Below are positions 9,395 through 63,875 of a DNA stretch of 64,000 nt, in pieces (position 1 is the first letter of the stretch; every line of letters begins with the position of its first letter). The DNA lies in the NCBI RefSeq assembly GCF_003095655.1, contig NZ_CP029151.1, positions 3,285,001 to 3,349,000 on the forward strand, written 5' to 3'. The stretch comes from Dokdonia sp. Dokd-P16. Lineage in GTDB: Bacteria; Bacteroidota; Bacteroidia; Flavobacteriales; Flavobacteriaceae. A program made the position numbers and the translations under genes. The notes beneath the pieces are model-generated. The model saw only the letters and a list, made by a program, of their open reading frames with translations, was not told where the DNA came from and made no database searches.

Positions 9395-9410
9395 CATTTT
9401 CGCGAAAGCG
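9395..9410. repeat. CGCTTTCGCGAAA palindrome copy, intergenic
   Basis: Core TTTCGCGAAA at 9398-9407, extended on one side to AAAGCG and on the other to CACATTTT. It sits directly after the stop of the minus-strand T9SS gene. The rest of 9208-9394 is AT-rich, with nothing else seen. Confidence 0.85.
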
Positions 9411-9417
9411 GTATTCA

Positions 9418-11178
9418 TCAATACCTTCTCAAAGCAAAATATCCAGTAAACGTCACGTTTGAAAGGGTATTTGCCTTATACCAAAATCCATTATCAAAAA
9501 GCATTTTACCATGATAGTTTCCATCCCAACCTTGACCATAAGGAGAAATAGTCTTGAGACGCTTTCCAAACCTGTCGTAAATTTCTATACTCGTAACTGT
9601 CTCTCCACGTATTACTACTCCCCTCACTTGCCAAGTGTCATTAACACCATCTCCATTAGGAGTGAAGTATTTTGGAAATCCCGGGTCAGGTTTGATACGC
9701 CTGCTATCCAAGCCACAACCGTTGCGGTCTCTTACATAAACCTGAATATCTGTCGCATCAATATTTGTAAGTAATGGACTAGATTGATAAGGGCCATTCT
9801 CACTAGTGCTAGAATATTCAAAATCACCTTCCTCTTCTAATTCTACAAGAACGTTTACTGTGTTTCCTTGATTTGAAATCACTAAGTTATCAATGATAGG
9901 AGGATCAATTATAGAAACCTCAAACGAGTGGGTTGCTGTACAAATAATAATTCCAGAATCAATAACTGTTTCTGTACTCACCTCCACCATATATACTCCT
10001 GAGGTATTGATTGTAACTAGAGCGTCTGATGATATACTCACCATTTCACCATCACTTATTGTACTCCACACAATGCGCTCATACGGTTCTAGATAGCTCA
10101 GGATTAATGGAGCATTATCTCTGCAAATCTCATAATTTTCGGCGAGATCAATTATGGGATTTAAATCAACCATTTCACCTGTAATTCCATCTGTGTAAGG
10201 GCCACAACCATAGGTGGTCGTAAAGCTTGTTTGCGTACAATTTTGTGCCTCTCCAGCAGCATTAAAAGGTGTTATGGTTACAAAGTATAAAGTTCCTTCA
10301 AGAAAGTCAAGTACGGCTGTAGATGTAGCTAGACCAATATCTGTATTTGCAAGTACGTCTGATCCTCCGGGTGTTGTACCTATTCTTATAAGATAACCCT
10401 CTACATTAGTCACTGCTGGCCATTCAAGTATTGGTGTGAGTGCAACTTCAGTTGCTCCATCTGCTGGCGCTATAAGTTGGGTGCAGTCTGGTATTTCCGT
10501 AGCAATATTTTCTGTAGTAAATGAGGTCTCTGCACAACCTGTGGCTTGTCCATTCTCATTATATGCTATCACGGTAACAAAATACGTCGTATCAGGTTCA
10601 AAATTTACATCGTTATTATACGTCAAAGTATTACCTAAATTCTGGGCACTTACGACATCGATTCCTCCAGGTGAAGTACCTATATTTATAATGTAGCCCG
10701 TAGCTCTAGGCGCATAAGGCCAACTTATTGTAGTGTTTAAAGAAACGTCTACTGCTCCATTTACTGGAAAACTTGCTTGCGTACAGGACGGAATAACGGT
10801 AACATCTTCCGTAGTAAAAGACTGACTATTGCATGACTGCGAGCCACTTACAAAAAAGGCTCGGATCGTAATGTAGATGATTGTACTTTCTGGCATTCCC
10901 TGCGGAGGATTAAAACTCGCTGAAATACCTACACTAAAATTATTGAGTATGTCTGCACCTCCTGCAGTAGTACCTAAGTCTATAAAATAATTAACTGCTC
11001 CTGCTACTGGCTCAAAACTTATTGGGGCAATTACAGAAACATTGGTTTCTCCTTGAGCTGGAGAAATAAGCAAAGCACAGCTGGTGTCTTGAACGGCCGC
11101 TTTCGCGAAAACGTGAAAAACACAAAACAGTCCTATTAAATAGAACCGAAGGCAACTCTCTTTACAGCTCAAGTTCAT
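9418..11178 (-). CDS. T9SS type B cargo protein with three FN3-like domains
   Basis: A 586-residue exported protein. The signal peptide ends in HVFAKAAVQD, where a copy of the genome palindrome encodes the AFAKA-like peptidase site. Three repeats of about 95 residues follow (about 35-330). Each starts near C..L..P..G...V and carries GY.I.IGT.PGG.D(V/I), then TYFVT(V/I).(A/P)(Y/F)N..G and ETSFTT, which is a fibronectin type III-like fold. An Ig/PKD-like region follows. The last about 85 residues (KYFTPNGDGVNDTWQ, IYDRFGKRLKTISP, GWDGNYHG, GYFALRRY) are the type B sorting domain of T9SS cargo. It is probably surface-exposed. It is separated from the giant cargo gene only by tRNA genes and carries a similar C-terminal domain. 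Ligand unknown. Confidence 0.92.
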   Translation of the reverse strand: MNLSCKESCLRFYLIGLFCVFHVFAKAAVQDTSCALLISPAQGETNVSVIAPISFEPVAGAVNYFIDLGTTAGGADILNNFSVGISASFNPPQGMPESTIIYITIRAFFVSGSQSCNSQSFTTEDVTVIPSCTQASFPVNGAVDVSLNTTISWPYAPRATGYIINIGTSPGGIDVVSAQNLGNTLTYNNDVNFEPDTTYFVTVIAYNENGQATGCAETSFTTENIATEIPDCTQLIAPADGATEVALTPILEWPAVTNVEGYLIRIGTTPGGSDVLANTDIGLATSTAVLDFLEGTLYFVTITPFNAAGEAQNCTQTSFTTTYGCGPYTDGITGEMVDLNPIIDLAENYEICRDNAPLILSYLEPYERIVWSTISDGEMVSISSDALVTINTSGVYMVEVSTETVIDSGIIICTATHSFEVSIIDPPIIDNLVISNQGNTVNVLVELEEEGDFEYSSTSENGPYQSSPLLTNIDATDIQVYVRDRNGCGLDSRRIKPDPGFPKYFTPNGDGVNDTWQVRGVVIRGETVTSIEIYDRFGKRLKTISPYGQGWDGNYHGKMLFDNGFWYKANTLSNVTFTGYFALRRY

Positions 11179-11275
11179 TCCACAAAGTTTTCAAAATAAA
11201 GACCTATCAAATATACTGACTAGTCGTTAAAGCATCTTGTAGGAAAAATAGGTGTGATTTTAAATCAATTAAAAT

Positions 11276-14405: not shown

Positions 14406-14479
14406 ATTTCTTGTTTTAAAGTTCTATAACTATAGACGCTTAAAAACTTATAATAGTTGCCTCAATCTTTATTTATTCA

Positions 14480-14497
14480 CGATTTCGCGAAAGCGCA
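14480..14497. repeat. palindrome copy, intergenic, 3' of parE
   Basis: Core TTTCGCGAAA at 14483-14492 with flanks CACGA and GCGCA, four bases before the parE stop on the minus strand. Confidence 0.85.
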
Positions 14498-14500
14498 CTA

Positions 14501-16360
14501 CTAATCCTCCTCCACTACTCTGTCTAGTTCTACCTTGAGATTCTCAATAATAAACTTCTGTCTATCTGGCGTGTTTTTACCCATGTAAAAAGACAATAAT
14601 TCTTCAATCATCAAAGCTTTATCTAGCATTACTGGCGCTAGCCTTATATCTTCTCCTATAAAAAACTGGAACTCATCTGGTGATATCTCACCCAGTCCCT
14701 TAAATCGAGTAATTTCTGGTTTTGCACCTAGGCGCGCCATAGCATCTGCCTTTTCTTGATCACTATAACAGTACACTGTTTCTTTCTTATTACGCACTCT
14801 AAAAAGAGGTGTTTCTAATATGTATAAATGTCCTTCTTTTATAAGCTCTGGAAAGAACTGCAAGAAGAAGGTGATTAATAATAATCGTATGTGCATACCG
14901 TCAACATCGGCATCTGTTGCTATCACAATGTTGTTATAACGTAAGTCTTCTATAGATTCTTCTATATTAAGTGCAGCTTGCAAGAGATTAAACTCCTCGT
15001 TTTCGTAAACGATTTTCTTTGAAAGTCCGTAGCTATTAAGAGGCTTTCCTTTAAGACTAAAAACAGCTTGTGTGTTTACATCACGTGACTTTGTAATTGA
15101 TCCAGATGCTGAATCTCCCTCGGTAATAAACAACGTAGTCTCGAGGTTACGTTCTTTCTTACTATCTGTAAGGTGGATACGGCAATCTCTTAATTTCTTA
15201 TTATGAAGGTTTGCTTTTTTTGCCCTGTCTTTTGCTAGTTTACGTATTCCAGAAAGATCCTTTCGCTCACGTTCTGCTTGTAATATTTTACGTTGCAGTG
15301 CATCGGCTACAGGAGTATTTTTATGTAAAAAGTTATCAAGTGCAGTTTTAAGAAAATCATTAATATACGTTCTTACGGTAGGTAACTCACCTCCCATATC
15401 TGTAGATCCTAGTTTGGTCTTCGTTTGCGACTCAAAAACAGGCTCCATCACCTTGATACTTATGGCAGAGACAATAGATTTTCTAATATCTGATGCCTCA
15501 TAACTCTTATTATAAAACTCACGAATAGTTTTTACTATGCTTTCGCGAAAAGCTGCCTGGTGCGTTCCACCCTGCGTAGTATTCTGTCCATTTACAAATG
15601 AATGATACTCCTCAGAATATTGCGATTTACTATGTGTAATTGCAACTTCAATATCTTCTCCTTTTAAGTGGATGATATCATATAAGCGATCTCCCTCTGC
15701 AATACTTTCTGAAAGTAAATCTTTCAGTCCATTTTCAGAAAAAAATTTCTCCCCGTTAAATACAATCGTTAATCCTGGATTAAGATACACGTAGTTCTTA
15801 ATTAAACGTTCTACGTACTCAGAGCGAAATTTAAAGTTCTTAAAAATCTCTGCGTCTGGAACAAAAGACACTTTAGTACCGCGTCTGCGAGAGGTCTCAT
15901 CTAGCAAATCTTGATTTGTTAGTTCGCCACGAGCAAACTCTGCACTTGCAGATTTTGCATCTCTAGTAGATTCTACTCTAAAGTAGCTGGATAATGCGTT
16001 TACCGCCTTAGTACCTACTCCATTTAAACCTACAGATTTTTTAAAAGCACGCGAATCATACTTACCTCCCGTGTTCATTTTTGAAACAACATCTACTACT
16101 TTTCCAAGCGGAATACCACGACCGTAATCACGTACGATTACTTTTTCTCCTTGTATGGAAATCTCTATGGTCTTCCCGGCTCCCATTACAAACTCATCGA
16201 TACAGTTATCAAGCACCTCTTTTACAAGGATATAGATACCGTCATCTGCGCTAGAACCATCACCTAGTTTACCTATGTACATCCCTGGACGCATGCGGAT
16301 GTGCTCCTTCCAATCGAGCGATCGGATATTATCTTCGTTGTATTGTGTTTCTTGAGTCAT
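14501..16360 (-). CDS. parE: DNA topoisomerase IV subunit B
   Basis: A 619-residue GHKL-ATPase topoisomerase B subunit, starting [10 protein letters not shown] at 16360. An in-frame upstream ATG at 16462 would add 34 hydrophobic, unconserved residues and is rejected. ATP-site motifs are EVLDNCIDE (about 48-56), DYGRGIP (78-84) and [14 protein letters not shown] (111-124). The TOPRIM motifs are [12 protein letters not shown] and [12 protein letters not shown], supplying the metal-binding acidic residues. It drives strand passage with ParC. A palindrome copy at 15541-15550 is read in frame as AAFRESIV. This is the canonical order parE - lipoprotein - parC, all on the minus strand. Confidence 0.95.
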
Positions 16361-16471
16361 AAAATGTCGTGGAGTCGCTAATATAAGGACTTGCAATGGC
16401 TTAAAGAACCTCAAAATAAAGAAATAATTAACAATTTTAAAAATAGCATTGTTGATTACCAAATTCTCTAT

Positions 16472-16484
16472 GCTTTCGCGAAAA
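16472..16484. repeat. palindrome copy, intergenic, 5' of parE and the divergent gene
   Basis: Core TTTCGCGAAA at 16474-16483 with flanks TGC and ATATGA, in the space between two divergent genes. Confidence 0.8.
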
Positions 16485-16563
16485 TATGATTAAATTATTC
16501 TCTCTCCTTTTTCTTTACAAACCATGCGATTTGTATCTTTCTATCCTTACAAAGTTAGATTTT

Positions 16564-17322
16564 ATGGCAGTATTAAATGGATTAAATCGAAGATTATTAT
16601 TAATCGCCTTTGTAGGTGGCGCCATTGCTATACTACTGATTTATAAAAGCCAAACAACAACATCTCCCGAAGTTCGTACAGCCGAAGATTTACTAGAAAA
16701 AGTAATGAACGCTAGTGGTACAAAAAAGCGTTACAACAACATAGAAAACATACGCTTTGAAAAAGCTTTTCATCTATACCACGAAGATGGAACTGTAGAA
16801 ATAGATCGTACTGAGTTACATCAATATGATTTTAGTAATGGAACACAACGTAATGTAAGTTGGTCATCAGATACTACAAATTATGAACTTATACAAAAGG
16901 ACACAGCTATATACCAGACTATAAATAATATCAGAGACACTATTACAACAAAAGTTTCACTACAGAATAAACTAAATGCCGCTACTTTCGTTTTAGGACT
17001 GCCCTACACTTTAGATAGTGATAGTTCGACAAAAACATACAATGGCTTACAAGATTTTGAAGGCGTAAGATCACATGAACTGGTCGTTACATTTACAGGT
17101 AGCGAAGATGTCTGGAGCCTTTATTATGAGCCAAAAACGTTTGCATGGCTAGGTTACTGGGTACAAACCCCAGATCACTATAGCCTTGTTATTAATGATG
17201 AAATGACAGAGGTGGACGGATTTCAATTTTCGCGAAAGCGTAACAGTTACCGCACAGATTCCTTCAAAGTGAGACAATACTTAAGAGCAGATTACGATTA
17301 CTCAAACTATGAAATAAAGTAA
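16564..17322 (+). CDS. membrane-anchored periplasmic protein, possibly DUF6503-like
   Basis: 252 residues from MAVLNGLNRRLLLIAF. The ATG at 16486 would add 26 residues of a second hydrophobic stretch and is less likely. One N-terminal transmembrane anchor (about residues 10-27) is followed by a soluble domain. It opens with AEDLLEKVMNASG (the start of many flavobacterial substrate-like beta-barrel domains), then GYWVQTPDHYSL and DGFQFSRKRNSYRTDSFKV. The palindrome at 17228-17237 encodes FSRKR near the C-terminus. The beta-rich pattern with aromatic pairs resembles outer-membrane-lipoprotein folds related to DUF6503, but the assignment is from memory. It faces away from the polyketide operon and ends one base before the ACP stop. 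Confidence 0.75.
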   Translation: MAVLNGLNRRLLLIAFVGGAIAILLIYKSQTTTSPEVRTAEDLLEKVMNASGTKKRYNNIENIRFEKAFHLYHEDGTVEIDRTELHQYDFSNGTQRNVSWSSDTTNYELIQKDTAIYQTINNIRDTITTKVSLQNKLNAATFVLGLPYTLDSDSSTKTYNGLQDFEGVRSHELVVTFTGSEDVWSLYYEPKTFAWLGYWVQTPDHYSLVINDEMTEVDGFQFSRKRNSYRTDSFKVRQYLRADYDYSNYEIK

Positions 17323-19332: not shown

Positions 19333-20117
19333 CGTATATGCTCTCCTCCATCTACAGGAATCACTGTCCCGTTAATCCAGGATGCTTCATCACGTGTTAA
19401 TAAATACACAGCATTGCCTACATCCTTAGGCAGTGTTAATCGCTTATAGGGATTACGTTGTTGTGCCATTTCTTTCATATGCTCACTCCCAGGTATGAGG
19501 CGTAAGCTCTCTGTATCTGTCACTCCTGCTTGAATACAGTTAGACGTAAGACCTAGTGGTGCAAACTCTAATGCAATCCCTCTCGAGATGGCTTCAAGAG
19601 CTGCTTTGGCCGCAGCAACTGCGCCATATTGTGGCCATGCTTTGCTGCTACCTTCACTTGTAAATGCAATGGCTCTAGCAGATGGGGTAAATAATTCCGC
19701 TTTCGCGAAAGCGGATACCCAATCATAATAACTCACTGCCATAGCGTCCAGTGTGCCTTTAAAATCCTCGTTACTAAGCGTAGCGCCGTCTTCTGAATAT
19801 AAAGGCTTCAAATTACCACGGGCGATGCTATGCACCACTACTTTTATGGCTCCTACACCCACAGTATCTTTTATTTCAGTGATAGTAGCTTGACGCTTAT
19901 CTGCATTAAGGGCATCTGTATTATATGATAAAATGGTCGCTCCAGAAACTTCCATCTCACGCATAGCGTCTTCAAAAGCTGCTATCACACTACGACGAGA
20001 TCTATGAATGATGATGATATTCATTCCCTCATGCGCTAGTTTCTTTGCGGTGGCTAGCCCAAGACCTGAGCTACCTCCTAAGATTACTGCATATTTATTC
20101 TTATAAGATTGACTCAT
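19329..20117 (-). CDS. SDR enoyl-ACP reductase-like protein (FabL/FabI type, Y-x6-K)
   Basis: About 262 residues of a short-chain dehydrogenase. The cofactor loop GGSSGLG is at 14-20. The catalytic pair is Y164 and K171, spaced Tyr-x6-Lys as in enoyl-ACP reductases FabI and FabL, not Tyr-x3-Lys as in FabG; VVVHSIARG also resembles FabI. It is therefore likely an enoyl-ACP reductase, although the classic-SDR glycine motif makes it closer to FabL. The codon before this ATG is GTG and could add one residue. A palindrome copy (19697-19714, a perfect 18-base palindrome) encodes SAFAKAEL at about 135-142, in the helix before the active site. Confidence 0.88.
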   Translation of the reverse strand: MSQSYKNKYAVILGGSSGLGLATAKKLAHEGMNIIIIHRSRRSVIAAFEDAMREMEVSGATILSYNTDALNADKRQATITEIKDTVGVGAIKVVVHSIARGNLKPLYSEDGATLSNEDFKGTLDAMAVSYYDWVSAFAKAELFTPSARAIAFTSEGSSKAWPQYGAVAAAKAALEAISRGIALEFAPLGLTSNCIQAGVTDTESLRLIPGSEHMKEMAQQRNPYKRLTLPKDVGNAVYLLTRDEASWINGTVIPVDGGEHIR

Positions 20118-21877: not shown

Positions 21878-22995
21878 TATGTTATAAGATTTCCGTGTGT
21901 AGACTGTATCACGCTACTTAATAATTTTGGCGACTTTTGAAGTATCCCTACTCCTAATCTAGTTATCGTTGTATTATGCAACCCACGCTGTATAAGCGCC
22001 CCGTTGCGCATTCTCTTGGCAAAGTTGCGTTTCCATTGTTTTGTGTATTCTTTCTCTAGCTGTTCTCGTTTATTTAGATTTCCTCTATGATCAATAAGAC
22101 ACTCACTAGCAATCTTTGCGCTATGTATTGCCATTGCCATACCGTTACCGCATAAAGGATGTATAAGTCCTGCACTATCACCTATCATAAGTATGTGATT
22201 TTCCACAGCAGATTTATCTTGAAATGAGATCTGACTAATGGTGAGTGGTTTTTCAAAAATAGGTTCCGCTTGCGCGAAAAATTCTTTTAAATAACGATTT
22301 TGCTCTAACACCTCAACTCGATATGTGTCTAAGTCTTTATGCTTTTTGAACGAATTTACATCTGCTAGATAACAAACATTTATTGCGTCTGTTTCCACTT
22401 TTGATAATCCGCAGTAACCTCCTGAAAAATTGTGCAATGCTACTAGATCTTCTGGAAATTGTCCAGCATAATGTGCTTTTACACCCATCCAAGGGGATTT
22501 TGTACTTATAAATTTTCGCGAAAGCGTAATATCTAATCCGCTTCTCTTACCAAAAGCTCCAAGAGCATAAGGCGCCCGAAAGCTTTTATCTTTTGTAGTG
22601 ACCTCAAATTCCTCTCTCCCGAAAGTAACATTTATCACTGTTGCCTGCTCAAATACCAACCCTAAACTTAAAGCTCGTTCATATAGCGCTAGATCTAAAG
22701 CATACCTGCTAATCCCAAAACCTCCTAAGGGAAGTGCAATCTCAAGTGCATTTCCAGAGAGTCCAGAAAATTGAAAACGGTTTATTTTCTTAGCGCCATT
22801 AGTTATGGGATATATACCTAACGCATCAAGATATGGCAATACTTCATTAGAAACGTACTCTCCACATACCTTATGCTTAGGGTATGTATTTTTCTCAATA
22901 AGAACCACAGAGAAGTCAGCTTGCAGCAAGTGTACAGCGGCTGTGAGTCCTGCAAGACCCCCACCTATTATTATGATATCACAATCTTGTTCCAC
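21877..22995 (-). CDS. FAD-dependent oxidoreductase, geranylgeranyl-reductase/hydroxylase-like
   Basis: 372 residues. The N-terminal Rossmann motif IIIIGGGLAGLTAAVHL binds FAD. YPKHKVCGEYVS follows, as in the geranylgeranyl reductase family, then the GD motif MIGDSAGLIHPLCGNGMAMAIHSA. It is the first gene of the operon, so the promoter should lie just upstream at 22996-23020, though no clear box is visible. It is a monooxygenase-like flavoprotein that could hydroxylate or oxidise the polyketide ring, as SrsC does. A palindrome copy at 22514-22523 is read as TLSRKFIS. A degenerate copy near 22266 is read as FFAQAEP. Confidence 0.9.
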   Translation of the reverse strand: MEQDCDIIIIGGGLAGLTAAVHLLQADFSVVLIEKNTYPKHKVCGEYVSNEVLPYLDALGIYPITNGAKKINRFQFSGLSGNALEIALPLGGFGISRYALDLALYERALSLGLVFEQATVINVTFGREEFEVTTKDKSFRAPYALGAFGKRSGLDITLSRKFISTKSPWMGVKAHYAGQFPEDLVALHNFSGGYCGLSKVETDAINVCYLADVNSFKKHKDLDTYRVEVLEQNRYLKEFFAQAEPIFEKPLTISQISFQDKSAVENHILMIGDSAGLIHPLCGNGMAMAIHSAKIASECLIDHRGNLNKREQLEKEYTKQWKRNFAKRMRNGALIQRGLHNTTITRLGVGILQKSPKLLSSVIQSTHGNLIT

Positions 22996-24768: not shown

Positions 24769-26772
24769 TTAGTAATCTAGTAACTCTTGAAGTGTGCTAG
24801 CTAATCGCTCTACAGGTAAATACTGTTTCTCAAGTTCTGCATCAAAAGGTATAGGAGTATCTAAACTCGCAACACGTCTTACAGGAGCATCTAGGCTTTC
24901 AAAACATTCTTCCATAATCATTGCCGAAATATCAGACATTACAGATCCAAAGGCGCTGTCTTCTGTAAGTAGTAACACTCTTCCCGTTTTACGTACAGAG
25001 GTAATTATTGCTTCTTTATCTAACGGCTGTAACGTACGCAAGTCTAGTAAATCTGCAGAGACATTAATACTATCAAGCAACTCAATTGCCCAGTGCACGC
25101 CTGCGCCATAGGTTATAATAGTTACTTGCTCGCCTTCTCTTACTAATGAAGCTCTACCTAGAGGTAATGTGTAGTAGTTAGTTGGCACCTCTTGACGGAT
25201 GCTGCGATATAATTTTTTATGCTCAAAAAACAGTACTGGATTAGGGTCTTCTATTGCAGTCGCTAGCAATCCTTTTGCATCTGCTGGAAACGCTGGATAC
25301 ACCACTTTTAAACCTGGTGTATGGGTAAACCACGCTTCATTTGTTTGCGAGTGAAAAGGACCTGCCCCCACACCAGCACCACAAGGCATACGTATCACCA
25401 CATCTGCGGGTTGAGACCAACGATAGTGTGATTTTGCGAGGTAGTTTACAATAGGATTAAACCCAGAAGTTGCAAAATCTGAGAATTGCATTTCCATCAG
25501 TGCTTTTTTACCATTGATTGCAAGACCCATAGCTGTCTCTACAATGGCGCTCTCGCAAATAGGTGTGTTACGCACACGATCGCGACCAAACTGCTCCACA
25601 AAACCATCAGTGATTTTAAATACACCTCCGTATTCGGCTACATCTTGCCCCATGATCACAAGATCATCATACTTCTCCATAGACTGTCTCAGTCCTTGGG
25701 AAATTGCATCAATCAAGCGGAGTTCTTCTGTGTCTTTGCTTGGTACGCTTTCGCGAAAGCTAAACGGAGCATATACATCATTCATCTCAGTTTCTAGATT
25801 AGGAGTTATATTCTCCTCTGCATATGCTTTATCTAGATGTTCTGTGATTTCCTCTTTAATAGAGACTTCATAAGCATCTTTTGTCTCTTGAGAGAGAATC
25901 CCTTCTTGAATTAAGTACTTTTCAAAATTAAGTAGCGGGTCTTTTTCTCCCCATACTTCCATTAATTCCTCAGGAACATACTTGGTACCACTTGCTTCCT
26001 CGTGACCACGCATTCTAAATGTTTTAAACTCTATTAAAACAGGACGCGGATTGTTACGAATATCTTCAGTAATTTCTGAAATCTTAGTGTAGACCTCTAG
26101 AATATTATTCCCATCAATGATGTGAGATTCCATCCCATAACCTTTTGCTCTATCTGCAAGATGCTCACAATTATATTGCTCACTAGTAGGTGTCGATAGT
26201 CCGTATCCGTTATTCTCTATGCAGAATAGCACAGGTAACTGCCACACAGAAGCGACGTTTAGCGCTTCGTGAAAATCTCCTTCACTTGTTCCACCTTCCC
26301 CAGTAAATACTGTGGTTACAGCCTTCTCACTACGTAATTTATGTGCAAGTGCAATACCATCTGCCACACCTAGTTGCGGACCTAAGTGAGATATCATACC
26401 TACAATATTAAATTCTTGTGTCCCAAAGTGAAAACTACGATCGCGTCCCTTTGTAAAGCCGCTCATTTTCCCTTGCCACTGTGTAAATAATCTATATAAA
26501 GGAATCTCACGAGTAGTAAAAACACCGAGGTTACGGTGCATAGGTAATATGTACTCTTCTGGCTTCATCGCAGCAGTAACTCCTACGGAGATTGCTTCTT
26601 GGCCTATTCCAGAAAACCATTTTGACACCTTTCCTTGTCTTAGTAAAATAAGCATGCGCTCCTCTATTAATCGAGGTTTAAGCATTGCTCTGTATAGTCT
26701 AAGTAAGGTATCGTTATCTAAAGATGCTCTATTGTAAATAAAGGTTATGCTAGATTTTGTTGTAGTCGCCAT
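24769..26772 (-). CDS. fused 2-oxoacid dehydrogenase E1 alpha-beta subunit, branched-chain type
   Basis: 667 residues: E1-alpha (about 1-335) fused to E1-beta (about 350-667). The thiamine-diphosphate motif runs from GEGGTSEGDFHEAL to ENNGYG in the alpha half. The beta half has MGQDVAEYGGVFK, CESAIVETAMGLA and PCGAGVGAGPFHSQ. It oxidatively decarboxylates a 2-oxoacid and passes the acyl group to an E2 lipoyl enzyme, which is not encoded nearby. Substrate preference for branched-chain oxoacids is by family likeness. The palindrome at 25749-25758 encodes FSFRESVPS exactly in the alpha-beta linker (about 337-345). A matching -7 box lies upstream. Confidence 0.93.
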   Translation of the reverse strand: MATTTKSSITFIYNRASLDNDTLLRLYRAMLKPRLIEERMLILLRQGKVSKWFSGIGQEAISVGVTAAMKPEEYILPMHRNLGVFTTREIPLYRLFTQWQGKMSGFTKGRDRSFHFGTQEFNIVGMISHLGPQLGVADGIALAHKLRSEKAVTTVFTGEGGTSEGDFHEALNVASVWQLPVLFCIENNGYGLSTPTSEQYNCEHLADRAKGYGMESHIIDGNNILEVYTKISEITEDIRNNPRPVLIEFKTFRMRGHEEASGTKYVPEELMEVWGEKDPLLNFEKYLIQEGILSQETKDAYEVSIKEEITEHLDKAYAEENITPNLETEMNDVYAPFSFRESVPSKDTEELRLIDAISQGLRQSMEKYDDLVIMGQDVAEYGGVFKITDGFVEQFGRDRVRNTPICESAIVETAMGLAINGKKALMEMQFSDFATSGFNPIVNYLAKSHYRWSQPADVVIRMPCGAGVGAGPFHSQTNEAWFTHTPGLKVVYPAFPADAKGLLATAIEDPNPVLFFEHKKLYRSIRQEVPTNYYTLPLGRASLVREGEQVTIITYGAGVHWAIELLDSINVSADLLDLRTLQPLDKEAIITSVRKTGRVLLLTEDSAFGSVMSDISAMIMEECFESLDAPVRRVASLDTPIPFDAELEKQYLPVERLASTLQELLDY

Positions 26773-28022: not shown

Positions 28023-28206
28023 GCTGTTATGTCGTTTAGTAGTGGGATTGTATCTCTATAATTATAAGTTGTAAAGAACATCCCATAATCAATTATTGCA
28101 GTGCGCGAAGATATAAACTGCTTCTTAAAGGTACGCTATTAAAACCCATCGATATAAGGCGATATAAAAGTTATTGAAATATTTAAGGTTGACTATAATA
28201 ATGTTT

Positions 28207-28222
28207 CCGCTTTCGCGAAAAT
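28207..28222. repeat. palindrome copy, intergenic
   Basis: Core TTTCGCGAAA at 28211-28220 with flanks CCGC and ATGTGAG. It lies between two divergent genes. I see no other gene in 28023-28290. Confidence 0.85.
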
Positions 28223-28293
28223 GTGAGAAAAAGCAGCTCAATTTTTTATAATAAAACACATAGTTGACAATCTCAAACTGTACGCTATTTCCA

Positions 28294-37557: not shown

Positions 37558-37563
37558 ATCCCT

Positions 37564-42259: not shown

Positions 42260-42299
42260 AACACCTATAAACACTACACGTAACAAGGTTATTCTATTT

Positions 42300-44525: not shown

Positions 44526-45809
44526 TTATAGATGCGCTATTAAATTACTCAGTTGCGCTGTGAGTTCTCTCCTGTGATAGTTGGCTACTTCGTTTTCATT
44601 ACTAGCATACTTGTAGCCACCTGTAAATAAAGCTTTGATTACTGTTTTCAACTTTTTCTCTTGACTGTAATCTACAAAACTTCCTGTTGCTGTTTTTTCT
44701 ATAATAGTTCCTATATCTGCTCCCTGCGGCCCTATAGCAACTATAGGTCGCTGTGCGCTTAGGTATTCAAAGAGTTTTCCGGCAATGATACCTTTTGTTT
44801 TTTCGGCATTGATTTCTATGAGGAGCAAGGCGTTTGCTTGTCCTTGTAAACGCTGTGCTTCTTGGTGACTTACATAACCAACGAGATTTAATTGTGATTC
44901 TAGACCGCATTCCGTTATTGCGTCAATGATTTCTTGACTCACTTTACCTACAAGCTGTATTTCTAACGCTTTAGAAAAAGCTGGTAACTCATCACATAAT
45001 TCTCTCAACACCTTCCACAACAACTGCGGATTGCGATCTGAGAGCAAGGAACCTATATGAGATAATACAAATCGTTCTGAAGGATGATGCGGAGTGATTA
45101 TTCTATCATCAAACCCGTTTGTGATAACGGTAATAGGTCTTTTGGTAATTGACTGAAATTCTCTTTTTGTTCCTGGGCTGGTTACAATTATATGATTTGC
45201 AGTAGTGAGTACTTGCTTTTCTAACAGCTTGTGACGCGCATTTGTTTTGGCGGTCATTCGCAATTTATCGTGATACCCAATAGTCGTCCACGGATCTCTA
45301 AAATCGGCCAACCAATTAAGGCTAGGTTTCCAGTTTTTAAGTTGGTTGCCTATGAGATGTAGGCTGTGTGGTGGTCCTGTAGTGATGATTTTCTCAATAT
45401 TGTTTTCTTCGATATACATTTTCAAGTACTCCACAGAAGGCGCTACCCACCCTACTCTAGCGTCAGGCACAAAGAAATTACCACGCACATAAAGCATCGC
45501 TTTTTGCAACAGACTTTGCTTTCCTTCCTTAGGTAAAATACCAGATGAAATGGTTTTAGTTTGTTTTCGCGAAAGCGTACTCGCCCACCCATACGGCTCT
45601 CTAATAGGCTGTTTTATAACCGTCACCTTATCTGAAACCTCAGCAACCAAAGAATCATCTAAAATGGGATAACTTGGATTTTCTGGAACGTAAACAATAG
45701 GTTCAACACCAAATTCTGGTAGGTACTTTGCAAACTTCAACCAGCGCTGCACCCCAGGACCACCAGCCGGTGGCCAATAATATGCGATGATGAGTACCTT
45801 ATTATTCAT
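44526..45809 (-). CDS. glycosyltransferase family 4-like protein
   Basis: 427 residues. A GT-B fold is indicated by the N-terminal YYWPPAGGPGVQRWLKFAKYL, the loop DFRDPWTT, TNGFDD in the middle, and the C-terminal nucleotide-sugar contact region AGKLFEYLSAQRPIVAIGPQGADIGTII. It uses an activated sugar to extend a glycan; donor unknown. It shares one base with YfhO (which stops at 45809) and precedes the flippase by nine bases, so the three genes form one operon. The palindrome copy at 45565-45574 encodes STLSRKQTK in a variable loop. Confidence 0.92.
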   Translation of the reverse strand: MNNKVLIIAYYWPPAGGPGVQRWLKFAKYLPEFGVEPIVYVPENPSYPILDDSLVAEVSDKVTVIKQPIREPYGWASTLSRKQTKTISSGILPKEGKQSLLQKAMLYVRGNFFVPDARVGWVAPSVEYLKMYIEENNIEKIITTGPPHSLHLIGNQLKNWKPSLNWLADFRDPWTTIGYHDKLRMTAKTNARHKLLEKQVLTTANHIIVTSPGTKREFQSITKRPITVITNGFDDRIITPHHPSERFVLSHIGSLLSDRNPQLLWKVLRELCDELPAFSKALEIQLVGKVSQEIIDAITECGLESQLNLVGYVSHQEAQRLQGQANALLLIEINAEKTKGIIAGKLFEYLSAQRPIVAIGPQGADIGTIIEKTATGSFVDYSQEKKLKTVIKALFTGGYKYASNENEVANYHRRELTAQLSNLIAHL

Positions 45810-48235
45810 TAAGCCTGTGCTTCTGTATCACGGTTTTTTACCGTGTAGAATATCCCACCGGCAACTAGTAAGAAAAGTAATAAACTACTTCCTAGCATAA
45901 TCATCCCTCCGGTTTTTACCACTTGTGGCTCAAAAGTCATCACCACTTCGTGAGCACCTGCAGGCACTTTTATACCTCTCAAGGCATAGTTTACTGGTAA
46001 AATGGTAGTTTCTACACCATCTACGGTTGCAATCCATCCATTTTTGTAATAGTTCTCTGCAAAGACCATAAAGCCATCGCTTCCATTTTCTACTTGGTAC
46101 ACGAGTTTATTAGGCTGTATCTCTTTTGTTTGTACCACTGCCGTGCTATCACGTTGCGGTTGGAAGTTTCCTAATTCCTCACGTAAAGCCTCACGGATGA
46201 GTACTGTATTCTTTGTGTCTACTTTAGTGAGACCATCAAACTCTGCATTATAATCTGGTACGTACTGTATCTCGTTTACAAACCAAGCAGGACCGTTTGC
46301 TTCTGGATTTTTACTAATGCTCATCCCTTTTTCACCATCTTGAAGAATGTATTTTACATTATACATATTGAGAATCTCTGTATTCCCTTGAGCAATCTGT
46401 TGAGTGTATAGATCATCAATCGTACGCGGTTGTACGGCAGAATATCCATTAAGCGAATTGAAATAGTACGAAGTATGGCTATTATTAAATCCTCGAGCAA
46501 GATCAATCACGCGGAAGTAGCTATCATCCTTTCTGATTTCTTCATCGATAGGAGTAATCTGGAAGTTCTGATCATACTGTCGCTGGGTAATAAAGTTCTC
46601 TTCATTTACAGAACGTCTATCTACACCCACAAGATCAAAAACTATGAGCGCACCAATCGTGATTATTGCGATATTTTCTGAAATCTTTTTCTTGAGTGTT
46701 AACCACAAGGCTACACCTATAAAAAGCACAAATAATAAAGACCTCAACACATCACTTTTTAATACAGCGAGGCGATCTTCTTTTATGGCATTTAATATTT
46801 CTGGTTGCTCGATGGCCATCTGTCCTTCGGCGGCAGAGCGTAGATTAAATAAGCTTCCGCTAAAAAGGTAGAGGATCACAAAAAGACCTGCTAGTGAACC
46901 TATAGCGATGAGTAATTTCTTTTGCTTTTCGGCTTGATCAACTCGGTCGTTTAAAAATCTATGTAAACCCACCATTGCTGCAATAGGTAATAACAACTCT
47001 AAAATCACCTGTATACTCGTAACCGCTCTAAACTTATTGTATAATGGCACGTAGTCAATAAAGAAACGTGTAATTCCTTCTACGTTCTTTCCCCAACTCA
47101 GTACTAAGGAAACAATCATACCTGCTAGTAACCACCAGCGCAATCTTCCATTTACTAGAAACAGTCCTAATAATGCAAGTGCAAAAACTGTTACTCCGAG
47201 GTATGGCGGTGCTTCTACAAATGGCTGCTCTCCCCAGTATAATCTCGTTCCTTGAGCATAATAACTTACTTCGTTAGGAGGAACTCCTAATGCACTTAAC
47301 TTTTTCGCGAAAGCAGAATCACGACCCAAATCGGCAGCGGTACCGGTTCCCATAAAATCTGATGCAATGAGATTGAGAGACTCTAGCTTTCCGTAACTCC
47401 ACTGCGTGATGTAATCAAACCCAAGACCGTCTTCAACAGCGTCTTTTGCTAGGTCATCTTTTAATAATTGCTCTCCACGTATACTTGTCTTTGCATATTC
47501 GGCCGTAGCAAGCAAGGTCGTTGCGTTTGTAGCCAGACCAAGTAGCACTGCTATGACTAATATTCCCGAAGCTTTAAGAAAATGTGGGAGTTGTTTTTTC
47601 TTGATAGCGTCTATCAAGTAAGCAATTCCTAAAATCACGCATAATAAACCTAAGTAATAAGTCATCTGGTAGTGATTTGCTTGAATTTCTAGTCCCATTG
47701 CAACGGCAGTGAGTAAAAATCCCCAAAGATATCTTTTTTGATAGGTGAGTATAATACCAGCAAGTACGAGTGGGAAATAACCTATGGCGTGCACCTTTGA
47801 GTTATGCCCTACGCCTATAATGATTATGAGATAGGTAGACAGACCAAAGGCAAGCGCACCAACTACGGCAAGCTTCCAAGGGACACGCATCACGAGCATT
47901 AATGCATAAAAAGAAATAAAATATAGAAAAAGATAATCTGCTGGGCGTGGTAAAAAGCGAATCACACGGTCCAACTTATCCATCATATCATACTCAAACC
48001 TCGCTCCCATCTGGTAGGTAGGCATCCCTCCAAAGGCACTATTAGTCCAGTAAGTCTCCTCACCCGTCTCTGCTCTAAAGTCACGATGTTGCTTTGCCAT
48101 CCCTTCATAGAGCTTGATATCATTTTGATAAATACGCTTTCCAGATAATACTGGATTGAAGTATACGAGTGCCACGACTATAAAGCCAAGTACAACTAGA
48201 ATATGCGGAAGCAGTTTTTTAAAATCGATGTTCAT
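45809..48235 (-). CDS. YfhO-family membrane glycosyltransferase
   Basis: 808 residues with about a dozen membrane helices in the first 520 residues and a large extracytosolic C-terminal domain (about 560-770) ending in a last helix. The start VVALVYFNPVLSGKRIYQNDI, the Asp-rich loop and GMPTYQMG are typical of YfhO (GT-C-like) proteins, which glycosylate lipoteichoic acid in Gram-positives. In Bacteroidota it may act on a surface glycan, consistent with the two downstream glycan genes. The palindrome copy at 47303-47312 encodes SAFAKKLS in an extracytosolic loop. Confidence 0.9.
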   Translation of the reverse strand: MNIDFKKLLPHILVVLGFIVVALVYFNPVLSGKRIYQNDIKLYEGMAKQHRDFRAETGEETYWTNSAFGGMPTYQMGARFEYDMMDKLDRVIRFLPRPADYLFLYFISFYALMLVMRVPWKLAVVGALAFGLSTYLIIIIGVGHNSKVHAIGYFPLVLAGIILTYQKRYLWGFLLTAVAMGLEIQANHYQMTYYLGLLCVILGIAYLIDAIKKKQLPHFLKASGILVIAVLLGLATNATTLLATAEYAKTSIRGEQLLKDDLAKDAVEDGLGFDYITQWSYGKLESLNLIASDFMGTGTAADLGRDSAFAKKLSALGVPPNEVSYYAQGTRLYWGEQPFVEAPPYLGVTVFALALLGLFLVNGRLRWWLLAGMIVSLVLSWGKNVEGITRFFIDYVPLYNKFRAVTSIQVILELLLPIAAMVGLHRFLNDRVDQAEKQKKLLIAIGSLAGLFVILYLFSGSLFNLRSAAEGQMAIEQPEILNAIKEDRLAVLKSDVLRSLLFVLFIGVALWLTLKKKISENIAIITIGALIVFDLVGVDRRSVNEENFITQRQYDQNFQITPIDEEIRKDDSYFRVIDLARGFNNSHTSYYFNSLNGYSAVQPRTIDDLYTQQIAQGNTEILNMYNVKYILQDGEKGMSISKNPEANGPAWFVNEIQYVPDYNAEFDGLTKVDTKNTVLIREALREELGNFQPQRDSTAVVQTKEIQPNKLVYQVENGSDGFMVFAENYYKNGWIATVDGVETTILPVNYALRGIKVPAGAHEVVMTFEPQVVKTGGMIMLGSSLLLFLLVAGGIFYTVKNRDTEAQA

Positions 48236-48590: not shown

Positions 48591-49972
48591 TATTTCAAAG
48601 CTGCTACTAGTTCATCTATGCTTACAGTCTCTTGTGAGCCTTCTGTCATATTTTTGAGCGTGTATTGTTTTGCATCCATCTCTTCCTTTCCAGCAAGTAC
48701 TAAAAACGGAATATTGCGCCGGTTTGCATAGGTCATTTGCTTTTTCATTTGCTTATTGCTCGTCACGGCATCTGGATATAACTCGGCAGAGATTCCTGAT
48801 TGGCGTAATTTGCTTATCGCTTGCATTGCGTAGCCCGCTTCTTGATCTCCAAAGTTTACAAAAAACACTTTTACACCTTCTGTCGCCTCTTCTGGAAACA
48901 AGCCTAGCTCTTCTATCACAAGGTAAATACGATCTAGACCAAACGAGATCCCAACCCCACTCATATCTTTAAGCCCAAAAATACCTGTAAGATCTGCATA
49001 GCGACCACCGCCACCTATACTTCCCATCTCTACACCTTCTGGAGCACTTACTTCAAAAATAGCTCCCGTGTAATAGTTGAGTCCGCGGGCTAGTGTTACG
49101 TCTAATTGTAGTGTTGCGGTTTGTAAACCTAAGTTTTCTATGGCATCATTAATAAACAATAGTTCGTTAATTCCTTCCATTCCCGTCTCAGATTCTGCAA
49201 GCAAAGTTTTAAGTGTTGCTAGCTGATCACCAAAAGTGCCAGATAGTGTAAACAACGGTGCTACCTTATCTATCGCCTCTTGAGTAATGCCTTTTTCAAG
49301 CATTTCTTTGGTCACGCCCTCTTCTCCTATTTTGTCAAGCTTATCTAGCGCTACGGTAAAATCTATGAGTTTATCACTTGCACCTATCACCTCTGCAATA
49401 CCGGAGAGTACCTTACGGTTGTTCATCTTGATAGTCACTCCTTCTAGCTTTAATGCGCTAAAAACAGCATCATATAACTGTACAAACTCTACTTCTTGCC
49501 AAAGAGAATCACTTCCTACCACATCTGCATCACACTGATAGAACTCGCGGAAACGTCCTTTCTGTGGGCGATCTGCTCTCCATACGGGTTGCATCTGGAA
49601 ACGCTTAAATGGAAATACAATATCATTCTGATGTTGTACTACGTATCTCGCAAAAGGTACCGTAAGATCGTAACGAAGTGCTTTTTCTGAGATTTGTGGT
49701 GTGAGTGCTGTTGAGTCCGCTTTCGCGAAAGCGTCATCCTTCACTTTACGTAAATAGTCACCACTATTCAATATCTTAAATATCAAGCGGTCACCTTCTT
49801 CTCCATACTTACCCATCAATGTGCTGCTGTTTTCAAAACTAGGCGTCTCGATAGGCTGAAAACCAAAACGCTGAAACTGTGTGCGTATGGTGTTCATAAT
49901 ATAGCTGCGTTTTGCAACTTCTTCTGGTGAAAAATCTCTGGTTCCTTTAGGTATAGAAGGTTTTGTACTCAT
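48590..49972 (-). CDS. hisS: histidyl-tRNA synthetase
   Basis: 460 residues of a class II synthetase. Motif 1 lies near [14 protein letters not shown]...[16 protein letters not shown]; motif 2 is [26 protein letters not shown]; the His-binding loops are [19 protein letters not shown] and [11 protein letters not shown]. The C-terminal anticodon-binding domain is about 360-460. The palindrome copy at 49721-49730 encodes [10 protein letters not shown] in a segment after the KVK motif (about residues 79-85). It ends right at the 86-bp repeat, so transcript ends may fall in that repeat. Confidence 0.96.
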
Positions 49973-50639: not shown

Positions 50640-50669
50640 TATTATCACGGATAAAATCAATCTAAATAT

Positions 50670-50688
50670 TGCTTTCGCGAAAACGTGA
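50670..50688. repeat. palindrome copy, intergenic or 5' of the CrtO-like gene
   Basis: TGCTTTCGCGAAAACGTGA, core at 50673-50682, lies just upstream of the start at 50639. Confidence 0.82.
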
Positions 50689-53863: not shown

Positions 53864-53867
53864 TGGT

Positions 53868-53889
53868 TACGCTTTCGCGAAAGCGTGAT
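53868..53889. repeat. palindrome copy, intergenic, most complete
   Basis: TTACGCTTTCGCGAAAGCGTG, core at 53873-53882, between two convergent genes. An inverted-repeat hairpin with 18-base symmetry that could also help end transcription. Confidence 0.9.
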
Positions 53890-58008: not shown

Positions 58009-58807
58009 ACTGTGGTTGCTATGTATGCTGTTTCTATGTTCGCTTTGCGCGAAAGCTACCGCTATACAACAAACTCAAGAAGAAACTACTACAGAGGAAG
58101 TCGTTGAAGAGGAAGTAATCTATCCCGAAAACACCTATCATGATCCTCGTGGTATTCTTACTTATGATAATGGAACAGTAACACCGCTTCCCATCTCTGA
58201 AAATAGTCTTGATGAGTACAAACAAGACGACGAATTTAATTACAAAGAAGCGACTCCAGAAGATACCTGGTGGTCACGTTTCAAAAGAAAAATTGATGAT
58301 CTATATAACGCTTTCATACGCTGGCTTACTGGTGGTAACGAAGCAACAGGTGTCTGGGCAGTCATAGTAGAACTTCTACCCTACTTATTAATTGTAGGTT
58401 TACTCGTATTCTTTGTATGGCTATTTATGAAAATAGATAGCGGTTCCTTATTAATGGAAAAAATAAAAGCTCCTGAAACGTTACTCTCAGATGATGAGGA
58501 GCTCATCCAGCGACCAGACCTTGATCAATTAATAGAACAGGCTATTGCTGCTGGTAATTACAGATTAGCTGTGCGTTTTTATTATCTACGTGTACTTCAG
58601 AAAATGAGTACTCAAGATCTTATAGATTGGCAAGTACAGAAAACAAATCATGACTATTTATTCGAAATAGAAGACCTAAACTTAAGAAACCAGTTCAGAA
58701 AAGTGACAGATATTTACGACTATATCTGGTATGGAAATTTTGAGGTCGATGAGACCGCTTTCGCGAAAGCAAAAACATCTTTCACCCAAATAAATAATCA
58801 GCTATGA
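58001..58807 (+). CDS. DUF4129 domain protein
   Basis: 268 residues. The N-terminus MRKLWLLCMLFLCSLCAKATA is a signal peptide whose cleavage region is again read from a palindrome variant (58041-58055). A short acidic stretch (EETTTEEVVEEEV), a membrane segment (VELLPYLLIVGLLVFFVWLFM, about 125-145) and the DUF4129 domain follow: AIAAGNYRLAVRFYYLRVLQKMSTQDLIDWQVQKTNHDYL. The palindrome copy at 58759-58768 encodes TAFAKAKTS near the C-terminus. It overlaps its neighbours by four to eight bases. Confidence 0.92.
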   Translation: MRKLWLLCMLFLCSLCAKATAIQQTQEETTTEEVVEEEVIYPENTYHDPRGILTYDNGTVTPLPISENSLDEYKQDDEFNYKEATPEDTWWSRFKRKIDDLYNAFIRWLTGGNEATGVWAVIVELLPYLLIVGLLVFFVWLFMKIDSGSLLMEKIKAPETLLSDDEELIQRPDLDQLIEQAIAAGNYRLAVRFYYLRVLQKMSTQDLIDWQVQKTNHDYLFEIEDLNLRNQFRKVTDIYDYIWYGNFEVDETAFAKAKTSFTQINNQL

Positions 58808-61090: not shown

Positions 61091-62431
61091 TTGGCTATTA
61101 TAAGATTTATAAAAGGTTTTTTTGTTCACCAGCGTTTGTTTTATGCACTGGGAGTTATCGGTGTGCTTTATTTGATTTCCTACTGGTTTAATGGCCTCTT
61201 TGGAATTACTAATATCTTATTGCTTTTACTGGTGCTCGCATTTTTTGTGGATGCATTAGTTCTTTTTCGCGCAAGCGGAAAAATAAAAGGTGTGAGAGAG
61301 CTACCAGAAAAATTCTCAAATAGTGATGCAAACGAGCTTCCTGTCATCCTTGAGAATAAATATCCGTTTGCAGTTACCCTTGATATTATAGATGAAATAC
61401 CAGAACAGTTTCAAAAACGTGATTTTAGTAAAGTAATTGAGATACCAGCACGAGAGACAAGGTCATTTTCATATTCCTTACGTCCTACAGAGCGTGGAGA
61501 GTATACCTTTGGGCATCTTAATGTGTACGTGAGTACCAAGCTTAAACTTGTAAAACGTCGCTACCGCTTTGAGAAAGACCAGATGGTAAAGGTGTATCCA
61601 TCTTTTATACAGATGAAAAAGTATGCATTTCTTGCCCTAGACAATAGACTTACTATGCACGGCATGAAAAAAATACGCCGTCTAGGACATACGATGGAGT
61701 TTGAGCAAATTAAAGATTACGTCCCTGGTGATGATGCTCGTACCATTAACTGGAAAGCAACTGCAAAACGCGCTAGCCTGATGGTAAATCAGTTTCAAGA
61801 CGAGAAGTCACAACCTGTATATGCACTCATAGACGCTAGCCGCGTGATGAAGATGCCTTTTAAAGGATTGACACTTTTAGACTATGCAATTAATAGTACG
61901 CTAGCATTTTCTAATATTGCCTTAAAGAAAAAAGACAAAGTGGGCATGCTCACCTTTGCAGAGTCTATTAAAAATCACCTTCCTGCGAGTAGTAAGAAAA
62001 CTCACTTGCAGACTATTCTAGAGGTGCTTTACAATATAGATACTAGGTTTTTAGATAGTGATTACGGTGCGTTATACAACCAAGTAAAACGTAAAATCAC
62101 CCAGCGTAGCTTACTATTATTGTATACTAATTTTGAGCACATAACAGCACTTGAAAGACAGTTACCTTATTTAAAAGCGCTTTCGCGAAAACATGTCTTG
62201 GTGGTTATCTTTTTCCAAAACACAGAACTTGACCAGCTCATTGCAACACCTGCCGAAACACTTCCCGAGGTGTATCATAAAACGATTGCCCAAAAAGCAG
62301 ATCTTGATAAAAAAGTAATGGTTGCACGACTTGAACAATACGGTATTCAAACCATATTAACTAAGCCAGATGACCTTACAGTAAATACTATTAATAAATA
62401 TCTAGAGATTAAAGCAAGAGGCCTATTATAA
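61091..62431 (+). CDS. DUF58 domain protein
   Basis: 446 residues from a TTG start (61091), three bases past the MoxR stop. Two N-terminal helices (about 13-60) are followed by a beta-rich region and the DUF58 core, VPGDDARTINWKATAKRASLMVNQFQDEKSQPVYALIDASRVM, the conserved pattern that precedes a vWA-like domain with the metal-site motif. The palindrome copy at 62181-62190 encodes ALSRKHVLV near residue 366. A variant near 61266 gives LFRASGKI. Expected partner: MoxR. Function unresolved. Confidence 0.93.
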   Translation: MAIIRFIKGFFVHQRLFYALGVIGVLYLISYWFNGLFGITNILLLLLVLAFFVDALVLFRASGKIKGVRELPEKFSNSDANELPVILENKYPFAVTLDIIDEIPEQFQKRDFSKVIEIPARETRSFSYSLRPTERGEYTFGHLNVYVSTKLKLVKRRYRFEKDQMVKVYPSFIQMKKYAFLALDNRLTMHGMKKIRRLGHTMEFEQIKDYVPGDDARTINWKATAKRASLMVNQFQDEKSQPVYALIDASRVMKMPFKGLTLLDYAINSTLAFSNIALKKKDKVGMLTFAESIKNHLPASSKKTHLQTILEVLYNIDTRFLDSDYGALYNQVKRKITQRSLLLLYTNFEHITALERQLPYLKALSRKHVLVVIFFQNTELDQLIATPAETLPEVYHKTIAQKADLDKKVMVARLEQYGIQTILTKPDDLTVNTINKYLEIKARGLL

Positions 62432-62485: not shown

Positions 62486-62508
62486 TCCCTTAACTAAAAT
62501 CACAACAA

Positions 62509-63852
62509 ATGTCGTTGTCACCACTTCAAGCCATCTCACCTATTGATGGTCGTTATGCCTCAAAAACAGAAACTTTAGCTCCTTTCTTTTCTGAAGCCGC
62601 ACTTATCAAATACAGAGTAAAAGTAGAAGTAGAATATTTTATCGCCTTGTGTGAGCTACCACTTCCGCAACTTGAAGATGTAGATAAAAGTGTCTTTACC
62701 GCTTTGCGCGAAATTTACCAAGACTTCACTACAGAAGACGCGCAGGCCATAAAAGACATTGAGAAAGTAACAAACCACGATGTAAAAGCGGTAGAATACT
62801 TTATCAAAGAAAAATTTGATGCACTTGACCTTGCATCTTACAAGGAGTTTATCCACTTTGGGTTAACATCTCAAGATATTAATAATACTGCAATCCCGAT
62901 GTCTCTTAAGGACGCGATGAATCAAGTATACATTCCAGAATTATTGGAGGTTGTAGATCATCTTAAGCAGCTTGTAGATGAGTGGGCAAACATTCCTTTA
63001 CTAGCTCGTACACACGGACAACCTGCTTCTCCTACTCGACTAGGAAAAGAAATTGAGGTTTTTGTAGTACGTATAGAAGAGCAACTTAATTTATTAAATG
63101 ATATTCCTAGTGCTGCAAAGTTTGGTGGTGCTACAGGAAACTTCAATGCACATAAAGTAGCATATCCATCTATAGATTGGAGAGCATTTGGTAAATCATT
63201 TGTACATGACACGCTAAAAATGCACCACTCCTTTCCTACTACGCAAATAGAGCACTATGATCACATGGCTGCATTATTTGATGGACTTAAGCGTATTAAT
63301 ACGATTTTAATAGATCTTGATCGTGATTTCTGGACCTATGTATCTATGGATTACTTCAAGCAGAAAATTAAAGCTGGAGAAGTAGGTTCTAGCGCCATGC
63401 CGCATAAAGTGAACCCAATTGACTTTGAAAACAGTGAAGGGAACTTAGGTATTGCAAACGCTATTTTTGAGCACCTTTCTGCAAAGCTTCCTATCTCAAG
63501 ACTACAAAGAGATCTTACGGATAGTACGGTATTAAGAAACATAGGTGTTCCATTAGGACATACATTAATAGGATTACGTTCTACCGTAAAAGGATTGAAC
63601 AAACTATTAATAAACGAAGAAAAAATCGCTGCCGATCTTGAGAATAACTGGGCTGTAGTAGCTGAGGCTATCCAGACTATTTTAAGAAGAGAAGGATATC
63701 CTAATCCTTATGAAGCACTTAAAGCACTTACTAGAGTAAACAGTAAGATTACAAAGAAGTCTATGGCTGAGTTTGTGGATACACTTGAGGTAAGCGCGGC
63801 AATTAAGAAAGAATTAAAAGCAATTACTCCTCAAAATTATACTGGGATATAG
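62509..63852 (+). CDS. purB: adenylosuccinate lyase
   Basis: 447 residues of the fumarase/aspartase superfamily. The signature loop SSAMPHKVNPIDFENSEGN carries the catalytic serine; THGQPASPTRLGKE provides the general acid/base region; GLTSQDINNTAIPMSLKD is the third conserved block. It acts twice in purine synthesis (SAICAR to AICAR and adenylosuccinate to AMP). It is the closing gene of the plus-strand block, but has its own promoter-like box and terminator. A palindrome-like variant at about 62702 is read as TALREIYQ. Confidence 0.97.
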   Translation: MSLSPLQAISPIDGRYASKTETLAPFFSEAALIKYRVKVEVEYFIALCELPLPQLEDVDKSVFTALREIYQDFTTEDAQAIKDIEKVTNHDVKAVEYFIKEKFDALDLASYKEFIHFGLTSQDINNTAIPMSLKDAMNQVYIPELLEVVDHLKQLVDEWANIPLLARTHGQPASPTRLGKEIEVFVVRIEEQLNLLNDIPSAAKFGGATGNFNAHKVAYPSIDWRAFGKSFVHDTLKMHHSFPTTQIEHYDHMAALFDGLKRINTILIDLDRDFWTYVSMDYFKQKIKAGEVGSSAMPHKVNPIDFENSEGNLGIANAIFEHLSAKLPISRLQRDLTDSTVLRNIGVPLGHTLIGLRSTVKGLNKLLINEEKIAADLENNWAVVAEAIQTILRREGYPNPYEALKALTRVNSKITKKSMAEFVDTLEVSAAIKKELKAITPQNYTGI

Positions 63853-63857
63853 TAGTT

Positions 63858-63875
63858 CGCTTTCGCGAAAGCGTT
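63858..63875. repeat. palindrome copy, intergenic, 3' of purB
   Basis: TCGCTTTCGCGAAAGCGT, core at 63861-63870, six bases after the purB stop and ahead of its terminator. Confidence 0.88.

Follow-up and report, generated by a model that had tools for sequence, protein, structure and literature searches.

As a phenomenon, the nearest described counterpart of the DNA element reported here is HIP1 (highly iterated palindrome 1, GCGATCGC) of cyanobacteria, likewise a palindrome, clade-specific, present in many hundred copies or more and of unknown role. In the sections of Elhai (2015) that deal with these points, inner methyltransferase words and one-off forms of HIP1 are common, and alternative HIPs are tied to methyltransferases with that target (PMC4390886). 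DNA uptake words, i.e. the DNA uptake sequence (DUS) of Neisseriaceae and the uptake signal sequence (USS) of Pasteurellaceae, are a further point of comparison. The Neisseria words are described in part of one study (PMC2397512) as clade-specific, kept in place and scarce in acquired DNA, with a DUS/DUS-1 ratio of ~2.4 in aligned regions; passages of another (PMC6776037) have the Pasteurellaceae words accumulate in temperate, and not in large, likely lytic, phages, and in the corresponding section of a third (PMC1939737) the known uptake words are not palindromes. The present element is a palindrome with the 10-mer core TTTCGCGAAA, found in a 64,000-nucleotide stretch of the Dokdonia sp. Dokd-P16 genome (contig NZ_CP029151.1, positions 3,285,001 to 3,349,000; hereafter the window). 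An earlier note, made from the letters of the window, had likened it to HIP1. The likeness holds for the iterated palindrome as such; it does not extend to the sequence, the phylum, the 10-bp dyad or the long skewed flanks, and unlike HIP1 the Dokdonia word has few one-off forms and inner palindromes that are not enriched outside the core. The palindrome is real and highly iterated, the same note's proposal of a signal for DNA binding or organisation is plausible, and we consider it probable that the sites serve as docking sites for a homodimeric protein, whatever its role.

The window holds 26 exact copies of the core versus 0.03 expected from dinucleotide shuffles, the maximum among 100 shuffled windows being 1. 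All 26 core coordinates in the earlier note match exactly, its estimate of well under one chance copy agrees with the shuffles, and the ~38% GC that it assumed was measured as 38.0%. The extended form that it described, CGCTTTCGCGAAAGCG, is present at 8 of the 26 sites, and the first 9 kb are indeed free of the palindrome. Its division into 16 copies in genes and 10 between them shifts to 18 and 8 with our assignment by rough open reading frame (ORF) calls, a difference that lies within the uncertainty of the start codons. The copies are not confined to the window, since a genome-wide count, as the note had proposed, gives 1,074 in the Dokd-P16 genome (one contig, 3,623,447 bases; roughly one copy every 3.4 kb), whereas the reversed word occurs 10 times. 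The 14-mer GCTTTCGCGAAAGC occurs 808 times and the 16-mer CGCTTTCGCGAAAGCG 556 times; neither is found reversed.

Site anatomy was read from 784 kb of the organism's own sequence (the window plus 36 further stretches) with 239 copies. The full site is a strict 10-bp dyad with GC(G) arms and, on each side, ~15–20 bp whose outward strand is poor in G. In a GC-N10-GC context 182 cores are perfect, 7 carry one change and 1 carries two. CGAAAGC words, counted on both strands, have a complete partner half in 421 of 466 cases and, beyond one change, the partner half looks like background; half-sites are not used. All 341 sites in own and congeneric sequence (orthologous copies included) have at least one GC arm, where 4.0 without any would be expected. 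The arms read GC(G), followed by T-A-A in Dokdonia and by A/G-A-A in G416, a genome of the genus g11 (see below), and at some sites the second arm is A-Y-GTGA-like. At positions 11–25 from the centre, G makes up 3–12% of the outward strand (237 sites) and reaches background by about position 36. A strand skew (C exceeding G to ~position 30 and A exceeding T to ~20) makes up most of this bias, and GC content changes little: the outward flank is A/C-rich and the strand running 5'–3' towards the core is G/T-rich. Outward G is depleted on both sides in mRNA sense, and the bias is therefore a property of the DNA dyad and not of a transcript. It recurs in G416, more weakly in G190 (the single genome of genus g191), and in phage contigs. 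The flanks share this composition and no common sequence. An extended cruciform was rejected, because left and right flanks are not complementary and their likeness is 0.284 versus 0.297 expected.

Copies hold their position across congeners of ~70% identity with diverged flanks. In G397 and G402, the congeners that align most closely, the window sites are kept at 20 of 22 places (background 10-mer conservation 16%) and at 14 of 16 (8%), respectively. Third codon positions inside the cores are identical in 46 of 50 cases in G397, 42 of 44 in G402 and 18 of 20 in G206, versus 58%, 50% and 48%, respectively, outside the cores. That silent positions are conserved speaks for selection acting on the sites; up to 150 bp away from them, the sequence is no more conserved than elsewhere. 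The copies in the window, none with an assigned strand (.), are as follows.

9392–9413 (core 9398–9407), strand., between genes; kept in G397
11095–11116 (core 11101–11110), strand., in a gene
14477–14498 (core 14483–14492), strand., between genes; kept in G397 and G402
15535–15556 (core 15541–15550), strand., in a gene; kept in G402, absent in G397
16468–16489 (core 16474–16483), strand., between genes
17222–17243 (core 17228–17237), strand., in a gene
19695–19716 (core 19701–19710), strand., in a gene
22508–22529 (core 22514–22523), strand., in a gene
25743–25764 (core 25749–25758), strand., in a gene
28205–28226 (core 28211–28220), strand., between divergent genes
30227–30248 (core 30233–30242), strand., between divergent genes
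33279–33300 (core 33285–33294), strand., in a gene; same place in 6 congeners (two after closing an alignment gap)
35578–35599 (core 35584–35593), strand., in a gene; kept in G402, one- and two-base variants in G206 and G190, absent in G397
36974–36995 (core 36980–36989), strand., in a gene; found again in 5 congeners, with one base changed in G412 and missing from G402
37537–37558 (core 37543–37552), strand., at an ORF start (start codon uncertain)
40282–40303 (core 40288–40297), strand., in a gene; codes for AFAKA in a signal-peptide-like start
42239–42260 (core 42245–42254), strand., between genes; retained in G397, missing from G402
43882–43903 (core 43888–43897), strand., in a gene; one arm of ATGTGA type
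45559–45580 (core 45565–45574), strand., in a gene; kept in 7 congeners
47297–47318 (core 47303–47312), strand., in a gene
49715–49736 (core 49721–49730), strand., in a hisS-like gene; kept in 4 congeners
50667–50688 (core 50673–50682), strand., near an ORF start
53867–53888 (core 53873–53882), strand., between convergent genes
58753–58774 (core 58759–58768), strand., in a gene
62175–62196 (core 62181–62190), strand., in a gene
63855–63876 (core 63861–63870), strand., after a gene

At 15541, 3 of the 10 core bases differ in G397 and the surrounding codons are all synonymous (AAFRESIV in both genomes). Positions 1058–8545 of the window code for a protein of 2,495 amino acids with a CHU_C type IX secretion signal, without the palindrome.

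By rough ORF calls, genes contain 136 of the copies in the 784 kb (0.19 per kb) and intergenic DNA the other 103. Intergenic density is 1.5 per kb for convergent, 1.5 for tandem and 1.0 for divergent gene pairs, and thus shows no preference for promoters. Within genes the reading AFAK is twice as frequent as FRES or LSRK, and copies are mildly concentrated in the first 120 nt (27 versus 17.1 expected). The sites are evenly spread. Gaps below 1 kb are rare in three genomes (9/99, 5/91 and 2/99, versus 22.7, 18.2 and 18.5 expected), spacing as a whole is significantly even in the window and G413, and counts per 20 kb are under-dispersed relative to Poisson, one motif-free stretch excepted. In G397 a 38-kb stretch without the 16-mer holds two 10-mers. 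Protein-coding constraint and neighbouring sites seem to be all that the sites avoid.

Among the sampled genomes the palindrome is restricted to a few lineages. Six of 397 Flavobacteriaceae genomes are loaded, with 559–1,107 copies each (two of the own genus, three of g11 and one of g191), and the other 391 hold 0–34. The earlier note had mentioned similar motifs in related Flavobacteriia; the palindrome is not a general flavobacterial feature. All 18 sampled genomes of the own genus (Dokd-P16 included) are loaded, with 138–711 copies of the 16-mer, and so are all 23 of g11, with 319–893 copies of the 10-mer. A quick hisS tree places the own genus with a Dokdonia record and G416, the sole g11 genome tested, with a Nonlabens record; G190, which has 408 14-mers and 44% GC in the sample, sits unplaced on a long branch. 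In a phylum-wide sample of 395 genomes the 14-mer is present in 22; Dokd-P16 accounts for 808 copies, and no other genome has more than 6. A low-copy ancestral regulon in other genera was considered and rejected: 26 of 27 copies (20 stretches, 8 genomes) lie inside ORFs, two of them short, and are therefore taken as coding coincidence or transfer. Full-text searches of open-licence PMC papers gave no description of a named or explained motif of this kind among the matches listed.

Some counts fall between these classes. In a chosen set of moderate genomes, G076 and G287 (both g77) have 16 and 19 copies of the 14-mer and G051 has 17, with no reversed copies; these may represent an intermediate state, loss or transfer. 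In genomes otherwise nearly free of it, the 14-mer forms clusters in G337 (C5, 46–61 kb and 100–103 kb), G160 (C1, 311–327 kb; L288) and G101 (C1, 2472–2476 kb), possibly DNA transferred from a loaded genus. The G160 cluster lies within a run of metal-efflux-like genes.

A scan of viral contigs with a 15-mer gave at least 120 stretches among the matches listed. Of 18 contigs, chosen mostly for having several stretches or matches, 15 carry at least two copies, some being near relatives of each other. Their 49 sites have the same arms (biased by the search word) and 10% outward G. One motif-carrying contig has an integrase and a site within its primase gene; in others, sites lie in terminase, portal and head-protease genes. 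Two related Nonlabens phages, P12024S and P12024L (L312, L313), have 0 copies in 35.7 kb each and no annotated integrase; we take them as lytic, and their host may not be a loaded strain. The palindrome is likewise missing from 20 kb of the own genome (90,001–110,000, L295), an integron-like array in which a tyrosine recombinase (PF00589, PF13495) precedes a set of small genes, with ~ten long imperfect direct repeats between one gene and the next. The word is clade-specific, kept in place and, as judged by two related phages and one array, poor in acquired DNA and lytic phages. Among cultured phages and plasmids, a 30-nt version of the site gave no convincing record (phage matches of 16–17 nt, best plasmid match 27 nt at 88.9%). 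As a separate observation, P12024S and P12024L lack GGCC and have few CCGG and CGCG, which looks like restriction-site avoidance. The motif-carrying contigs L085, L090, L094, L106, L117 and L160 have 42–48% GC, above Dokdonia, and their hosts may be like G190.

The most far-reaching possibility, which we hold less likely than not, is that the palindrome is a direction-independent, genome-wide recombination or self-identity signal, the first such, with strand-skewed arms and an undescribed dimeric reader common to two or three flavobacterial lineages. In the explanation that we tentatively prefer, each copy would be a site of two-fold symmetry to which a dedicated DNA-binding protein, a homodimer of Dokdonia, a Nonlabens-like genus and a third lineage, attaches. 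That the complete dyad is needed points to a dimeric protein on double-stranded DNA, which would read the 10-bp core and the GC arms, and the skewed outward flanks suggest that they take part in an additional step that is strand-specific. Roughly one site in every 3.4 kb would be kept on long-resident DNA by selection acting on the sequence as DNA, wherever coding constraints permit. The docking site may act in recombination or repair, though we would not call this role probable; it is preferred because the strand towards the core is G/T-rich, as in RecA-preferred DNA and Chi islands. Such a genome-maintenance signal would play the part of Chi as a palindrome that works regardless of direction, without being related to it. 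Site density is of the same order as that of Chi in Escherichia coli, and both have strand-skewed surroundings; in the Dokdonia word, however, half-sites are unused and the complete palindrome is needed.

Several points weigh against this proposal. Chi itself is short, asymmetric and read in one direction, and the step to recombination draws on general background, namely that RecA and Chi islands favour a G/T-rich strand. Five more distant congeners keep fewer sites, 15 of 25 (a perfect 10-mer is expected by chance at 4–6%), and neither of the two alignable sites is common to the own genome and G190 or G416. One-off forms occur above chance: 13 adjoin CGAAAGC versus 0.5 expected, and with the GC context disregarded 53 one-change 10-mers (chance not subtracted) stand beside the 239 perfect ones. 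Because of long gaps, overall evenness does not reach significance in G397 (p 0.20) or for the first 100 sites of the own genome (p 0.07), and a gap of ~23 kb free of the 10-mer in the own genome means that not every region requires a site. No binder was found, no unbiased search of whole genomes having been made. The role may instead be purely architectural or one of self-recognition.

In the architectural alternative a clade-specific nucleoid protein would bridge or anchor the chromosome at ~3-kb intervals. The few short gaps and even 20-kb counts, the lack of a promoter link, the need for a complete dyad and the presence of sites in phage contigs, one with an integrase, are all consistent with this, but a simple bridge needs no strand-skewed flanks, the 23-kb tract is hard to accommodate, and the natural candidate family is not expanded. 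The parS and Noc sites are likewise palindromes with TTTC...GAAA arms; their spacing differs, they number tens at most, and ParB_N has one match in each of nine loaded genomes versus 1–3 in 11 others. With no extra ParB-family member in the carriers, a ParB/Noc paralogue was rejected as binder, and we regard an architectural site as a serious, if unlikely, explanation. A self-recognition signal for natural transformation, like the DUS and USS of Neisseria and Haemophilus with a palindromic word, seems to us rather improbable. Its natural history does match that of the Neisseria and Pasteurellaceae words as far as the parts of those studies cited above go (PMC2397512, PMC6776037): shared are the high copy number, positional conservation, occurrence in phage contigs with a temperate one among them, and absence from the two phages without annotated integrase and from the acquired array. 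ComEC is also present, but as it is found in 16 of 16 genomes tested, loaded or not, it is uninformative. The word is palindromic, in contrast to known uptake words in the section cited (PMC1939737), and its one-off copies are fewer than in Neisseria (~2.4 for DUS/DUS-1, versus 239:53 uncorrected and 182:7 with GC arms, although the measures differ). The type IV pilus/type II secretion ATPase (PF00437) has no match over cut-off in the own genome, and such matches occur in 4 of 11 loaded and 5 of 19 other genomes; pilus-based uptake was rejected on these grounds.

A methylation- or repair-driven palindrome of the kind proposed for HIP1 would agree with the CGCG centre of the core and with the methyltransferase-linked alternative HIPs in the cited part of Elhai (2015; PMC4390886). 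With the 10-mer masked, however, TCGCGA (53 versus 51.9 expected) and TTCGCGAA (2 versus 1.7) are at expectation and CGCG is below it (729 versus 941). Inner palindromes are therefore not enriched outside the core, and a short methyltransferase target was rejected; few one-off variants exist, and favoured flanks extend at least 25 bp from the centre. We consider this explanation very unlikely. A mobile miniature element, which the earlier note had also raised, would, if REP- or MITE-like and spread by a transposase, account for many copies of a short inverted repeat and for the 3 of 14 missing orthologous copies that align to gaps. The other 11 absences are ungapped sequence with one to six differences, such as the synonymous re-coding at 15541, copies stay in place between diverged flanks, and those flanks have a composition bias and no common sequence; mobility is scarcely credible. 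Membership in the HIP1, uptake-sequence, Chi, ParB/Noc and mobile-element classes thus fails in each case on a tested feature.

About a thousand sites in cultivable marine bacteria, with signs of selection at silent codon positions in all alignments that could be made, render the function of highly iterated palindromes directly testable, the putative binder being retrievable with one 50-bp probe. The palindrome may also be usable as a watermark for DNA and phages from the loaded genera.

Other genera were scanned for similar words, taking the top five 10-mers by ratio in each locus of at least 12 kb. Most had 3 or 4 copies. Non-palindromic 10-mers with 5–7 copies in one locus occur in L220, L221, L223, L225, L228, L231 and L234, for example GCTTTGCGAA in L220, AGTTGCAAAG in L228 and ACTGAACACT in L234.

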